Source: an uncultured Alphaproteobacteria bacterium (GTDB lineage Bacteria; Pseudomonadota; Alphaproteobacteria; UBA2966). Taken from it: 64,000 nt of DNA. The DNA lies in the NCBI GenBank assembly GCA_958295725.1, contig OY282368.1:3320365-3384364 (forward strand). Reading direction: 5' to 3'. A program made the position numbers and the translations under genes. Below, one piece after another: positions 11,067-16,944 of this stretch. The notes below the pieces were generated by a model that searched no databases, was not told where the DNA came from, and saw nothing but the letters and a program-made list of their open reading frames with translations. Each line of letters opens with the position of its first letter. Position 1 is the first letter of the stretch.

Positions 11067-11205
11067 TCTCCGCCCCTTCCCGCCCTTCGCGATATCGAGT
11101 ATTGCTTGCCGGGCTCGTCGATAGTAGGCTCCGGCCGGTATCGGAAGCCTAGCGTTGCGGCCGCTCCGGTGGCAAGCCTCGACGCGCTTGGCCAATGGAG
11201 GAAAG

Positions 11206-12054
11206 ATGACCGTGCGCGGTGGCGTCGCCGGCGTCGTGGATGATGGTGTGCCCGCGCCGATGGTGTGCGTGCCGGACGTGCGTGGCGGCTACGAGGCCTA
11301 CATCTCCTCGGGTCTCTACGACCGACGCTATCCGCGCCCCAACGGGCGTACGCTGAGGAAATCATTGGGCTTCCTGCAGAAAGGAGGCCGGTTTCTCGAC
11401 TTTGGCGCCGGCACCGGACGTTACACCTTGCCGCTGATGGAGATGACCCGGGCGAGCGGCGTGGCGTACGACGTCTGTCCGGCGGCATGCCGGGCGATGG
11501 CGGACCGTCTGCGTGGCTTCGTCGACGAGGGGCGGCTCGTCATCCGCGACGGCGAGCCGGAGGCGTTGACCGAGGCGCACCGGCGGTCGTTCGATCTCGC
11601 GCTCATGGCCTTTGGGGTTCTTGGGCACATCGCCGGACGGGCGGCGCGCCTACACCTGCTCGGCGCGGTCCGCGAGATGCTGAAGCCGGAGGGCGTCCTG
11701 GTCCTCGGCTTGCCGAACGCGCGGCGGCGGTTCCGGGCGGCGCGGCGCTCAGCGGCTCCCCTGGTGCGGGCTGGCGAGCTGGAGGCCGGGGATATCCTTT
11801 ACACGCGCGGCCGGGCCGCCGACGGTATCCGACTATTCTACCATCTCTTCTCTCCGTCGGAGGCCCGTGACGACCTCTCGTCCGCGGGTTTCCGGATCGA
11901 GAGCATCGAGCCCGAGAGCCTGCTACCCGAGTATGCGGTCGTGGGCAACCCGTTGCTCGGTCGACTCGACGATCTGGCGTGCCGGATCGCCCCGGCCGCC
12001 AGCGGCTACGGATTTCTGATCGTGGCCAGACCTCTGCCCCCGGACACCCCATGA
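11206..12054 (+). CDS. Class I SAM-dependent methyltransferase
   Basis: Predicted soluble 282-residue methyltransferase. The SAM-binding motif I is LDFGAGTGRYT near residue 65. It is followed by an acidic-loop region (VAYDVCPAACRAMADRL) and a late motif where the chain reads MLKPEGVLVLGLPNARRRF. The ATG at 11206 is preceded by GGAGGAAAG. Its stop overlaps the start of the next gene by four bases (ATGA), so it is translated with the binding-protein/permease fusion and the permease-phosphatase fusion. The acceptor is unknown. Its place at the head of a signalling-like operon suggests modification of a small molecule or of a partner protein, but nothing in the sequence decides this. Confidence 0.8.
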   Translation: MTVRGGVAGVVDDGVPAPMVCVPDVRGGYEAYISSGLYDRRYPRPNGRTLRKSLGFLQKGGRFLDFGAGTGRYTLPLMEMTRASGVAYDVCPAACRAMADRLRGFVDEGRLVIRDGEPEALTEAHRRSFDLALMAFGVLGHIAGRAARLHLLGAVREMLKPEGVLVLGLPNARRRFRAARRSAAPLVRAGELEAGDILYTRGRAADGIRLFYHLFSPSEARDDLSSAGFRIESIEPESLLPEYAVVGNPLLGRLDDLACRIAPAASGYGFLIVARPLPPDTP

Positions 12055-13664
12055 GGACGATCGTCTGGTTCCGACTCGGTCGCCACGTCGGCCTCGCGCT
12101 TCTCGCCGTCGCCGTCTGGCTGCACGGCGCCGGTCAGGCCGCGGCTGACCGGCTCGACGAGATCCGCGAGCGCGGCCACCTGATCGCCGGAGTCAAGGCC
12201 GATTACCGACCCTTCGGTTTCCGCGACGAGGACGGCGACCTCGTCGGCTACGATACCGATGTCGCCCGCGCCCTGGCCGATGCCGTCGGCGTGTCGGTGC
12301 GGTTCACGCCGGTGACCAGCGCCAACCGGCTGCAAAAGCTCCAGCGCGGCGAGGTCGACATCGTCGTCGCCACACTGGGCGACACCCGCGGCCGCCGCGA
12401 GCTGGTGACCATGATCGAGCCGCAGTACTACGGCGATGGAGTCAACGTTCTGTTGCGGCCGGATGCGCGGGTCTCCGACTGGGAGGAGCTGCGCGGCCGT
12501 ACCGTGTGTAGCGTCCAGGGCTCGCTGTGGAATCGCCTGGCCCGCGAAAGGCTCCTGGTCGAGACGATCTCCCTCAACTCCACGCGCGAGGCCGCGCTGG
12601 CCCTGCGCAACGCGCACTGCGTCGGCTGGCTGTACGACGAGGTCAACCTCCTGAACGAGCTGGCGAGCGGAGACTGGGAAGAGGGCTACCACGTGTCCTT
12701 GCCGACGCGCTTCGTGTCCCCTTGGGCGGTCGCCATCGCCAAAGAAGAAGCTGGCGGGCGCCTCGACCGGCTGCTCGGCAATACGCTCGCGAGATGGCAT
12801 CGCGATGGCTTTCTGCAGCAGCTCGAGGAGCGGTGGGGATTGCCTCCCTCGCCCTATCTGCGGCGGGCCCGGCTGATCTGGCAGGAGACCGACGGGTCCG
12901 GCGAGCTCGTCTGCCGACGGGACGATACCGGAAAATGGCCCCTCGCGTGCCGCGAGGTCGCGCTCGTTGCCGGCGGGGAGCTCGGCGGCGTTTCAGGGGT
13001 ATCCCTGATGTTGAGGGAAGCGACCGGTCTCGACGTCAGCCTGATCTACGACCCGCAGGATCGCGATATCTTTCTCTTCGGTCTGTTCCTGACGGTCGCG
13101 CTGTCCGTCGTGACGGTGGTGGGCAGCATAGCCTTGGGCGTCCTGTTCGGTTGGGTGATACATCGACGGATACCCGTCGCCGCAGCCCTCCTGCAGGGCT
13201 TTTGCGCCGTCCTGCGCATGACGCCGCCGCTCCTGCAGCTCTATGTCGTCTTCTTCGGGCTCGGTGGCGTCGTTCTGGCACTCGGCTTCTCGCTCGACGC
13301 GTTCACGGTCGCGTCCGTGGTGTTGTCGCTCTACGCCGCGGCCAGCAACGCCGTCTCGTTCTCCCTGGCGGCGGACGTGGCGGCCGGCGAGGGCGAACGC
13401 CTGCGCTTCGGGATCGCCGAATTCCGTCGAGCACTGTGGCTGTGCCACGCCGCGGTGATGGGTAATTCGATCAACATCGTCAAGGCGACCGGCATGGCCA
13501 GTACCCTGGCGTTGCCCGAGCTGGTGCACGCCAGCACCTCGATCGTGGCCGAGAAGGGCAACGACGCCGTGATGATGAACCTGCTGTTGATCTGCTACTT
13601 CCTGCTGGTCATCGGCACGGTCCGGGCCTTCCGCCGTTGGGAACACCGGGACCACGCGTCATGA
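12051..13664 (+). CDS. Fused solute-binding protein and ABC-type amino-acid permease
   Basis: The 537-residue protein begins with a signal/anchor segment (VGLALLAVAVWLHGAGQAAA), then a family 3 binding domain at about residues 30-270 (LDEIRERGHLIAGVKADYRP, LQRGEVDIVVATLGDTRGRR). After a linker comes a HisM/GlnP-type permease domain from about residue 345 with several membrane spans (FLFGLFLTVALSVVTVVGSI) and the conserved loop region VMGNSINIVKATGMASTLAL. Such fusions occur in glutamine-type uptake systems, but a cognate ATPase is normally encoded alongside and none is present. It overlaps its upstream neighbour by ATGA and its downstream neighbour likewise. It is either half of an importer using an ATPase from elsewhere, or a ligand-sensing partner of the permease-phosphatase that follows. 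Confidence 0.85.
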   Translation: MRTIVWFRLGRHVGLALLAVAVWLHGAGQAAADRLDEIRERGHLIAGVKADYRPFGFRDEDGDLVGYDTDVARALADAVGVSVRFTPVTSANRLQKLQRGEVDIVVATLGDTRGRRELVTMIEPQYYGDGVNVLLRPDARVSDWEELRGRTVCSVQGSLWNRLARERLLVETISLNSTREAALALRNAHCVGWLYDEVNLLNELASGDWEEGYHVSLPTRFVSPWAVAIAKEEAGGRLDRLLGNTLARWHRDGFLQQLEERWGLPPSPYLRRARLIWQETDGSGELVCRRDDTGKWPLACREVALVAGGELGGVSGVSLMLREATGLDVSLIYDPQDRDIFLFGLFLTVALSVVTVVGSIALGVLFGWVIHRRIPVAAALLQGFCAVLRMTPPLLQLYVVFFGLGGVVLALGFSLDAFTVASVVLSLYAAASNAVSFSLAADVAAGEGERLRFGIAEFRRALWLCHAAVMGNSINIVKATGMASTLALPELVHASTSIVAEKGNDAVMMNLLLICYFLLVIGTVRAFRRWEHRDHAS

Positions 13665-16228
13665 CGGCGGGGGAGGTGGTCGACGCGCTGCTGACCTGGA
13701 CGCCCTATCTGGCGGCGGGTTTCGGCTGGAACATGATCGTCTCGCTGGTCGCGATGGCGATCGGCACGCTGGTTGGCGTGCCGCTGGCGGTGCTGCGGGG
13801 AGGCTCCGCGCGGGGCGTCAGGGGGACGGGTGGCGCGCTCACGACGTTCGCGCGCAGCGCGCCGACCTTCGTCATGTTGTTCTATCTCGCCTACATCGTT
13901 CCCGGATCCTTCGAGATTCTAGGCGTCGTCGTGACCGTGCCGGCCTGGTTCAAGGCGTCGCTGGCGCTGGCGATCGCAGTCGCCGGTTACGTGTCCGACA
14001 ACGCCCTCGCCGCGCTGCAGCATCTGAGGCGCGGCGAGACCGCCGAGGCGCTGTTGTTCCTGCCGTCCTGGACCAGCTACTTCCTGATCATCGTCATGGC
14101 GTCCGCCACCGCCTCGGTCATCGGCGTGCCCGAGCTCGTCCACCGGGCCCAGACCGTGATCGGTGCGATCGACAGGCCCGGGTTCTCGTTCTGGATCTAT
14201 CTCTACGCCATGGCCTGGTTTCTCGTCTTCGCGGGGGTCGTGGCCCTGGTGATGCGCGCCCTGCGTGCCCGCTTGGGCGGGGCGAGCGGAAGTCTCTCCC
14301 GGCATCTGGTCCTGATCGTCTCCGCATCGGTGGGCATCGCCATCCTCGGCGTGGCGACGGCGATGGGCCTGCTGGCGCGCAACGCGCTGATCGACCAGGC
14401 GGAGAACCAGGCGCGGCTCGTCGCCGGCCTGATCGCGAGCGAAGCCAACCGCGCCGATGCGATAACGGACGGAATCGCCCATCTCGTCGCGCGTGAGAAC
14501 GAGGCGCAGGCGATCGCCCTGGGTCATCTGTCGGAGGCCGTCGGCGGCGACGCGGAGGTGCTTGCCGTCCACCTCGCGGAGATCACGGCGGACAGCGTCA
14601 TTGACGACATCTGGATAGTGGACGAAACCGGGACGCCGGTGGCGCGAGCCTTCGACGGGCTCGGCCAGACCGGCGTCGACATGGCGCTCGGGGACATCGA
14701 TGGGCCGGTTCTGCGATCCCTCTTGTCGGGACGCCGCTTCTCCGTCGCGTTGCGACCGGTGCCGCGGGACGGGCTGGAGCGACCCATGCGGTATGTCGGC
14801 GTCCGCGCCCGCGACGGCGGGGTGGTGGTGGTCGGCAGCCCGACCGACGCGACCGCTGGCCTGCGCGGGACCTTCGGGCTGGTAGCGGCGCTCGGCTCGC
14901 TGGCCGGGCAACCGGGAATCCGGGCGATATGGGTGGTCGACGACTCGCTCGAAGTGACGGCCGCGGTCGCGACCGACGCGCGCACCGTGCCGGAGCCGGT
15001 GTTTATGGCGGTCGACCGGGAACTCGCCGGGCGGGCGTTGAACGCGGGTGCACAATCGGTGCTGGGCGGCAACGCCCTCCATGTCGCCGCGCCCGTCCTG
15101 GACCGCGGCGTCGCCATCGGCGTCGCCGTCATTCATATGCCTCGCGACCAGTTGGACCGGCTGCTTGCCGATTACCTCTGGTTCGGGCTCCTGATCGCGG
15201 CCACCGCCTTCCTGATCGGCTCGGTGACCGCGATCCTGTCGGCCCGCCGCATCACGCGGCCGGTCATGGCTCTGACCCGGGCGGCCGAAGAGGTGGATCA
15301 GCGCACCTTCGTCCCGGAATCGCTCGACGACGCCGGCCGTCGGCGCGACGAGTTGGGCCGGCTGATCCGCGTGTTCCAGGCGATGGCTCGCGACGTCCTG
15401 GCGCGCGAGGATCATCTGGAGGCCTTGGTCGCCGAGCGCACGCGCGACCTCAGGGAGAAGAACACACAACTCGACCAGGCGAAACAGCGCATGGAGGACG
15501 AGCTCGCTATCGCGCACTCCCTTCAGGGCGCGATCCTGCCCAAGATCATGCCCCGGCACGACGCCTATTCGGGGGACGCGCTGATGACTCCGGCGCGCGA
15601 GATGGGCGGCGACTTCTACGACTTCTTCGTCCTGCCGAACGGCCGCCTCGGCGTGGTGATCGCCGATGTCTCCGGCAAGGGCGTCTCGGCGGCGTTCTTC
15701 ATGGCGATCGCGAGGACGGTCATGCGCACCGCCGCGCATGACGCGGACCAGGCCGGCGCCTGCTTGCGCCTCGTCAACGACGGGATCTGCGCCCAGAACC
15801 CCCACGACCTGTTCGTGACGCTGTTCTACGGCATTCTGGATCCCGCGACGGGCCACTTCAGTTACGCCAACGCTGGCCACAACGCACCGTTCCTCGTTCG
15901 ACGGGACGGGGAGATCGAGATGCTGCCGTTGACCGGCGGCATCGCGGTCGGCGTCATGTCGGACCTGACATATGACGAAAACAGCTTGGCGCTCGCCGCC
16001 GGGGATACGCTGTTCCTCTACACCGACGGTATCTCCGAGGCGATGAACGCCGGTGGCGAGATGTTCGACGAGACGCGCCTTCAAGCCGCCTTGTCGACCG
16101 GCAACCGGAGCTCCGTCGGGGCCGTGATCGAGAACGTGACCCTCGCGGTCACCGAGTTCGTCGGCGACGCCGATCAGTCGGACGACATCACCTGTCTGGT
16201 TCTGCGGTACAACGGCGATCCGGACTGA
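13661..16228 (+). CDS. ABC-type permease fused to sensor, HAMP and SpoIIE/RsbU-type PP2C phosphatase
   Basis: An 855-residue chain. Residues 1 to about 205 are an amino-acid ABC permease domain (GWNMIVSLVAMAIGTLVGVP, with APTFVMLFYLAYIVPGSFEI). A second transmembrane sensor module follows (LVLIVSASVGIAILGVATAM, about 215-530) with a large extracytoplasmic region and a closing span. Next come a HAMP domain near 530-590 (ARRITRPVMALTRAAEEVDQ), a coiled coil to about 615, and a PP2C domain of RsbU/SpoIIE type. The PP2C domain has metal-site motifs MGGDFYDFF, VIADVSGKGVSAAFFM and DQSDDITCLVL. RsbU-type phosphatases dephosphorylate STAS anti-sigma antagonists. The start ATG overlaps the preceding stop. 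A convergent RsbW-like kinase lies 31 bases downstream. The fusion is in one uninterrupted frame and looks genuine. Confidence 0.9.
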   Translation: MTAGEVVDALLTWTPYLAAGFGWNMIVSLVAMAIGTLVGVPLAVLRGGSARGVRGTGGALTTFARSAPTFVMLFYLAYIVPGSFEILGVVVTVPAWFKASLALAIAVAGYVSDNALAALQHLRRGETAEALLFLPSWTSYFLIIVMASATASVIGVPELVHRAQTVIGAIDRPGFSFWIYLYAMAWFLVFAGVVALVMRALRARLGGASGSLSRHLVLIVSASVGIAILGVATAMGLLARNALIDQAENQARLVAGLIASEANRADAITDGIAHLVARENEAQAIALGHLSEAVGGDAEVLAVHLAEITADSVIDDIWIVDETGTPVARAFDGLGQTGVDMALGDIDGPVLRSLLSGRRFSVALRPVPRDGLERPMRYVGVRARDGGVVVVGSPTDATAGLRGTFGLVAALGSLAGQPGIRAIWVVDDSLEVTAAVATDARTVPEPVFMAVDRELAGRALNAGAQSVLGGNALHVAAPVLDRGVAIGVAVIHMPRDQLDRLLADYLWFGLLIAATAFLIGSVTAILSARRITRPVMALTRAAEEVDQRTFVPESLDDAGRRRDELGRLIRVFQAMARDVLAREDHLEALVAERTRDLREKNTQLDQAKQRMEDELAIAHSLQGAILPKIMPRHDAYSGDALMTPAREMGGDFYDFFVLPNGRLGVVIADVSGKGVSAAFFMAIARTVMRTAAHDADQAGACLRLVNDGICAQNPHDLFVTLFYGILDPATGHFSYANAGHNAPFLVRRDGEIEMLPLTGGIAVGVMSDLTYDENSLALAAGDTLFLYTDGISEAMNAGGEMFDETRLQAALSTGNRSSVGAVIENVTLAVTEFVGDADQSDDITCLVLRYNGDPD

Positions 16229-16259
16229 TCGCGCACCGGCGCGCCCGTGTTACTCGCCC

Positions 16260-16655
16260 TTACGTCGCCGTCCCGGCGTCCTCCGTGTTCTTGGTCTCGG
16301 TGTTCTTGGTGAGCGTCACGATGTTGTGTTTTCCGCTGCGGCGATACCAAAACCCGTCCATCATTTCGCGGACGAAGTGGATGCCCAGCCCGCCGATCGG
16401 TCGATCCTCGATCGGGACGTCGGTATCCGGTCGCGCGGCCTCGGAGGGGTCGAACGGCTTGGCGTCGTCGGTGATTTCCACGACCATGGCGCTCCCGTCC
16501 ATGCGGATCGCGATGTCGATCCGGTGTCGGGCGTCGTCGTCGTACCCATAGCTGATCGTGTTGGTCAGCAGTTCGTCGAGCGACAGGTTGACGGCGTAGG
16601 CGATGGCCGACGGCAGATCGCGCGCGGCGCAGAACTCGTCGATTTTCTCCGCCAC
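16260..16655 (-). CDS. RsbW-like anti-sigma factor / serine kinase (GHKL ATPase), 5' end uncertain
   Basis: GHKL-fold kinase of the partner-switching type. The N-box LDELLTNTISYGYDDD, the G1-like ITDDAKPFDPSEA and the glycine box GGLGIHFVREMMD are all present. Such proteins bind a sigma factor or phosphorylate a STAS antagonist. The GTG at 16655 gives 131 residues. However, family-like sequence (EISVLEISLTNDLQEIT) continues for about 20 codons upstream in frame to a stop, with no ATG, GTG or TTG. The true start is therefore either non-canonical or has been damaged. No STAS protein or sigma factor is encoded nearby. Being convergent with the PP2C fusion, it is likely its functional counterpart. 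Confidence 0.75.
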   Translation of the reverse strand: MAEKIDEFCAARDLPSAIAYAVNLSLDELLTNTISYGYDDDARHRIDIAIRMDGSAMVVEITDDAKPFDPSEAARPDTDVPIEDRPIGGLGIHFVREMMDGFWYRRSGKHNIVTLTKNTETKNTEDAGTAT

Positions 16656-16944
16656 GGCGGTGATCTCTTGGAGATCGTTGGTCAGCGAGATTTCAAGGAC
16701 AGAGATTTCGGCGGACCCCGAACCAGTGTTTCACCAAGTCGCGGGCCACCCCGGGAGCCGGTTCGAGATCGACCGTCCCCGCGACCGTGAACCCGCGCGT
16801 TGGCCCCGATTGTTCCCCGGTTTCGTCGAAACGGTCAAGGCTTTGTCCTGAACCAGGACACCCCCGGTCCCGGGACGCGCGTCAGTTTTCTTCAGCGCCT
16901 TCGATATCCTCCGGGACCAACCGGGATTTCCTTGACGGCGGGGT

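Follow-up and report, generated by a model that had tools for sequence, protein, structure and literature searches.

The window, the whole 64,000-nucleotide stretch of DNA analysed here, carries a locus that we consider to be probably an amino-acid ABC importer converted into a non-pumping receptor, which sets a PP2C/RsbW/STAS switch. No ABC ATPase linked to the locus was found in the window, and both permeases have lost coupling-loop residues through which such an ATPase would be contacted. The window belongs to the Defluviicoccus clade of the Alphaproteobacteria; the host genome comprises 3.67 Mb, and the proteins of the cluster have their nearest counterparts in Defluviicoccus MAGs. The features of the locus, in window positions, are:

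10152 to ~11060, minus strand: stand-alone SBP_bac_3 protein (SBP), divergent (E=5e-23; TIGR04262 'orphan' SBP match below cut-off)
11155-12054, plus strand: SAM-dependent methyltransferase (Methyltransf_23, profile match)
12051-13664, plus strand: fusion of an SBP with permease 1, 537 aa (SBP_bac_3 at residues 44-263, permease at ~341-533)
13368-13457, plus strand: EAA coupling region of permease 1, degenerate and shortened (residues 440-469; 10 residues fewer than in ATPase-bearing relatives)
13661-16228, plus strand: permease, sensor, HAMP and PP2C in one open frame, 855 aa
13661-14281, plus strand: permease-2 domain (residues 1-207 of the 855-aa protein)
14018-14071, plus strand: EAA coupling loop of permease 2, site of a 20-residue deletion (QHLRRGETAEALLFLPSW), from alignment to relatives and to the solved permease 4yms
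14255-14308, plus strand: junction of permease 2 and sensor-phosphatase, with an ATGA gene overlap at the equivalent place in the sister species G014
14306-15238, plus strand: transmembrane sensor (TM 216-238, periplasmic dCache-like domain modelled at ~298-494, TM 508-526)
15239-15391, plus strand: HAMP (residues 527-577; E=2e-4, below the curated cut-off)
15605-16210, plus strand: SpoIIE/RsbU-type PP2C phosphatase (E=1.6e-51; motifs GGDFYD, DVSGKG, YTDG and DDIT)
16260-16697, minus strand: convergent RsbW-like HATPase_c_2 kinase (E=2e-24; start codon uncertain)

Much of this layout had been described in a sequence-only reading of the window, and its uninterrupted 855-residue frame, the HAMP and SpoIIE parts of that frame, the convergent RsbW-like kinase and the lack of a linked ATPase were all borne out. 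The same is true of the overlapping gene that joins a binding domain (SBP_bac_3, Pfam E=2e-24) to a second permease domain and shares 4 bp (ATGA) with the 855-aa gene. Two descriptions had to be amended. The orphan binding protein preceding the locus is real, but the methyltransferase gene, which lies between it and the SBP-permease gene and overlaps the latter by 4 bp, had gone unmentioned. The permease domain of the 855-aa protein is PAAT-type by homology, but its matches fall below curated cut-offs and its coupling loop is missing. The homology of the RsbW-like gene runs upstream of its first ATG, GTG or TTG (GTG at 16655), with the same residues present in G014, and its start codon (16655-16700, minus strand) may be unusual.

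Matches of the N-terminal 200 residues of the 855-aa protein to PAAT-type permease models included NF011680 (cystine permease, E=4e-8) and TIGR01726 (E=1e-7), and permease 2 aligned with the solved permease PDB 4yms at E=2e-6. While neither permease half had a Pfam permease match, both are homologous to PAAT permeases (with the PAAT models matching below their cut-offs), corresponding to the two TMD subunits of a PAAT importer. The Cache assignment of the sensor domain is weak by sequence (Pfam E=0.007). AlphaFold2 models reached a mean pLDDT of 79.6 for the SBP-permease protein, whose SBP fold matched amino-acid SBPs with Z 28, and of 77.2 for the 855-aa protein, for which a pTM of 0.39 makes the domain arrangement unreliable; the predicted secondary structure of the latter is consistent with a bundle of TM helices, a Cache-like domain in the periplasm, an extended helical linker and a PP2C. 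Among the matches listed, fold searches returned only phosphatase chains for the whole 855-aa model, and SBP matches took up the listing for the SBP-permease model, leaving the permease and dCache folds without structural confirmation. A plasmid search with the whole 855-aa protein likewise returned, among the matches listed, the HAMP-PP2C part only.

The host genome encodes a single SpoIIE PP2C, a single free-standing RsbW-like kinase and a single free-standing STAS protein, the last with a YISSAG site and unlinked to the locus. The remaining HATPase matches lie in frames of 486-772 aa and are probably histidine kinases. The catalytic motifs of the PP2C and the HATPase_c_2 Ser kinase are those of an RsbU-RsbV-RsbW switch, to which the unlinked STAS protein with its phosphorylatable Ser would contribute a putative substrate. 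The phosphatase scored 106 bits against the SiaA equivalog model (cut-off 700), and an unsystematic reading of the neighbourhoods showed no sigma gene.

Relatives were collected by a class-wide genome search and an SBP-permease-alignment scan of the genomes of 84,980 species, which yielded 392 relatives, of which the best 80 were kept and assigned by hand to four classes from their annotated neighbourhoods. Because these loci were picked by SBP-permease similarity alone, PP2C linkage was not built into the sampling, although class I itself is defined by the PP2C. Among the best 80 of 392, class I (39 loci including the window) carries a PP2C on the same strand less than ~1 kb downstream of permease 2 and no adjacent ATPase, together with an SBP in 37, a methyltransferase in 31, STAS in 30 and RsbW in 27 loci; RsbW was not found nearby in 12 and STAS in 9 of the 39, in part because contigs end. 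Its hosts are Defluviicoccus and other Rhodospirillales MAGs, Zavarzinia, Kaistia, Bosea, Mesorhizobium, Aquamicrobium, Corticibacterium, Oryzicola, Accumulibacter and Competibacteraceae. The four class II loci of this sample (e.g. Oceanibaculum) contain the same PP2C, RsbW, STAS and methyltransferase genes plus an ABC ATPase. The seven class III loci combine loop-less permeases with an iGluR-like SBP (7/7) and a methyltransferase (6/7), and no PP2C was found in any of these seven loci. Class IV comprises 28 ordinary importers with ATPase. Stated without that bias, where permeases were loop-less and flanks readable (best 80 of 392, plus the window), a PP2C was present in 39 loci and absent from seven. 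Across classes I-III, the methyltransferase occurs in 41 of 50 loci, with no apparent role.

Several observations concern individual loci of this collection. All four class II loci encode a 375-aa protein without a Pfam match (13906-15033, minus strand, in L100). In class III, an SBP with extra hydrophobic segments, resembling ionotropic glutamate receptors, replaces the stand-alone SBP (5068-6297 in L106; 12123-13277 in L121). An ATPase ~5 kb away in L080 and L081 was not counted as part of the system, as it lies on the opposite strand beyond the SBP gene and probably belongs to another operon. Three loci labelled Chloroflexota, Planctomycetota and Gammaproteobacteria (L081, L095 and L076) are near-identical to, or nested among, loci of other groups and are probably mis-binned MAG contigs.

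In ABC importers, contact with the ATPase is mediated by an EAA loop, or coupling helix, that lies between a pair of TM segments (PMC12136057, PMC1810536). Counted between fixed anchors in each permease, the permease-2 loop measured 34 residues in 46 of 46 class I and III loci versus 54 in 32 of 32 class II and IV loci (best 80 of 392, plus the window). The permease-1 loop measured 62-70 versus 79 residues, meaning that 9-17 are missing. The window has lost 20 residues in permease 2 and 10 in permease 1, and neither retains a PAAT coupling loop. Loop loss coincided with the lack of a nearby ATPase (46/0 against 1/31), the sole off-diagonal locus being L063, in which the loop is kept and the ATPase lies ~9 kb away. 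The nominal p of 6e-21 for this association is too optimistic, as the midpoint-rooted tree separates classes I and III from classes II and IV; rather than 46 independent losses of loop and ATPase there may have been one event, and the simplest history is a single conversion. PP2C, RsbW, STAS and methyltransferase genes are already present in class II, so that a parsimonious reading is that the importer joined partner switching first and lost its motor later; alternative histories, such as a later transfer of the PP2C genes, are possible.

In-frame fusion of permease 2 to the PP2C was found in the window and in four other Defluviicoccus genomes with a similar junction. An assembly or frameshift artefact was therefore rejected for the fusion as such, although G014, in which the two parts are separate genes overlapping by ATGA, shows that the fusion is labile. 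The five fusion genomes form a clade that also includes G014: either a single ancestral fusion came apart again (or was misread) in G014, or fusion took place twice. In most relatives, including G014 as the closest sister species, permease 2 and the PP2C are separate neighbouring genes. A second kind of in-frame fusion joins permease 2 to RsbW in six loci from Kaistia, Bosea, Mesorhizobium and Zavarzinia (L058 and L086 are the same locus). That the same subunit is fused to either switch enzyme constitutes strong contextual evidence for a putative physical link between them.

These comparisons also bear on what the sequence-only reading had proposed beyond the gene layout. The co-occurrence across genomes that it had set beforehand as a check was observed, with the PP2C following permease 2 in the 39 class I loci. 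A linked ATPase, which would have spoken against it, is adjacent in none of these but is carried by the four class II loci. The fusion extends beyond this genome and is no assembly join, but it is confined to the Defluviicoccus clade and represents a local state of a widespread split operon. The underlying idea that permeases without an ATPase feed a PP2C switch is supported by this linkage and, more strongly, by the contrast between cut-back and full loops. The reading as a whole is partly supported, with the control of the phosphatase by substrate occupancy and any sigma-factor output being hypothetical.

Permease dN/dS values of 0.04-0.32 in close pairs indicate purifying selection, and the PP2C motifs and the kinase N-box are retained in most loci, with the strict patterns used missing a few variants. 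Degenerating pseudogenes were rejected on the basis of dN/dS and conservation. In the SBP, R115 and D196 are invariant in 42 sequences; we take these to be the positions at which amino-acid SBPs hold the alpha-carboxylate and alpha-amino groups, and their invariance suggests an amino-acid ligand.

It is unlikely, in our view, that the dCache domain is the only sensor and that the permease pair acts as a scaffold or SBP dock, localising the phosphatase or delivering its ligand. The phosphatase does have its own dCache-like periplasmic domain, and Chlamydia RsbU has been proposed to respond to alpha-ketoglutarate (PMC8256260). However, permease 2 is more conserved than the sensor-phosphatase, with a higher identity to the window than the PP2C in 38 of 38 comparisons, the permease-RsbW fusions join the permease straight to the kinase, and the seven class III loci keep loop-less permeases without this PP2C.

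We regard it as very unlikely that the locus is a working amino-acid importer which borrows an ATPase encoded elsewhere and is merely regulated by the PP2C and RsbW. Shared ATPases exist in some ABC systems, 28 ATPases in the genome match at E<=1e-20, and class II has an in-locus ATPase alongside the same partner-switch genes. Against this, every ATPase-less locus has lost the docking EAA loop from permease 2 and retains only a short, degenerate version of it in permease 1. In addition, the closest genomic ATPase (39% identity) has another SBP gene 3.5 kb away, which suggests that it sits in an operon of its own. Just as improbable is a channel or facilitator that the binding domain gates for passive passage of amino acids and that signals as a by-product or via an internal ligand: it would fit the loss of the ATPase contact alongside strong conservation of the permease cores, but we know of no ABC importer TMDs that conduct without an ATPase cycle, and the PP2C and RsbW fusions favour signalling.

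The reading of the locus as a converted, non-pumping receptor is supported by the PP2C linkage in class I, the fusions, the loop excision, the purifying selection, the single PP2C, kinase and STAS protein in the genome, and R115 and D196. It is likewise supported by topology, as the C-terminus of the permease should be cytoplasmic, on the same side as the fused RsbW and the expected start of the first TM of the sensor. In such a receptor, the SBP domain, perhaps together with the free SBP, would capture an amino-acid-like ligand in the periplasm, and the two loop-less permease domains would form a heterodimer whose conformation tracks the liganded or unliganded state of the binding domain. The state of the permeases would pass to the fused or co-encoded dCache-HAMP-PP2C protein via its TM, dCache, HAMP and coiled-coil segments, and the coiled coil would set PP2C activity, a mechanism reported for RsbU-type phosphatases (PMC12143880). 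PP2C and RsbW-like kinase would then oppose each other in setting the phosphorylation state of the STAS protein encoded elsewhere in the genome. We infer the heterodimer, the ligand class, the direction of the signal, the STAS protein as substrate and the output.

The genes adjoining several loci offer hints at outputs. In nine Accumulibacter and Competibacteraceae loci (L091, L092, L094, L096-L099, L102 and L109), the neighbours are an isoamylase-type (GlgX-like) glycogen debranching enzyme, a GlcNAc-2-epimerase-like protein, two STAS proteins and RsbW. An ammonium transporter and glutamine synthetase III, with STAS, stand near several Rhodospirillales loci. Genes of these three kinds adjoin the cluster in L078 (781-7990) and similarly in L067, L074 and L082; L078 additionally has a xanthine/uracil permease and a second STAS, and a xanthine/uracil permease is also found nearby in the Kaistia group. 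The debranching enzyme, the ammonium transporter and glutamine synthetase III suggest a possible control of carbon and nitrogen metabolism. In the Rhodobacteraceae loci L107, L111 and L126 (perhaps also L101), a loop-less pair without PP2C adjoins contractile-injection-type genes (tail sheath, Pvc16_N and tube-like proteins), suggesting that the same receptor type may have another output.

Transporter folds serve as receptor inputs in UhpC and Snf3/Rgt2. They do so too in CbrA of Pseudomonas, in which an SLC5 transporter domain is fused to a histidine kinase (PMC7096432). All of these derive from secondary transporter families, however, and none is a multi-subunit ABC importer without its ATPase. 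Closer in its input is GlnH-GlnX-PknG of Mycobacterium and Corynebacterium, in which an amino-acid SBP that seems to play no part in transport signals via a membrane protein to Ser/Thr phosphorylation controlling glutamate metabolism (PMC6069109, PMC9769921). GlnX differs in that it is predicted to contain four-helix bundles resembling those of sensors and has not been described as an ABC permease, and the output is the kinase PknG rather than PP2C/RsbW/STAS. With RsbU of B. subtilis and SiaA of P. aeruginosa (PDB 6k4e) the locus shares the linker helix to the PP2C and the kinase and STAS partners, but adds an SBP and two permease domains as input. From PAAT importers (AapJQMP/ArtQN type; PDB 4yms), to which its SBP_bac_3 and two permease domains are clearly homologous, it differs in lacking the ATPase and full EAA coupling loops. 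The inputs listed for RsbU-type phosphatases are PAS, receiver, GAF, HAMP and RsbT binding (PMC12143880). No description of an SBP/permease input to SpoIIE phosphatases was found in a search of open-access papers. To our knowledge, every ABC transporter described as a sensor still has its ATPase, and the open-access search found nothing to the contrary.

On balance, we favour the view that these loci represent a new receptor class, in which ABC importers became ligand-gated transmembrane signal transducers: ATPase and both loops were lost, and the freed cytoplasmic face would drive the PP2C/RsbW switch, or other outputs in class III. With motor and docking loops gone and the binding and membrane parts under selection and tied to a phosphatase switch, such a lineage can be seen from sequence alone, and the locus provides a system for asking how a docking SBP shifts the helices of a permease when no ATP is used. 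It is very probably a variant of the 'transporter turned sensor' theme, reporting outside nutrients to the cell, and suggests that wastewater-treatment organisms, namely Defluviicoccus, Accumulibacter and Competibacteraceae, have a nutrient-sensing pathway of this kind.
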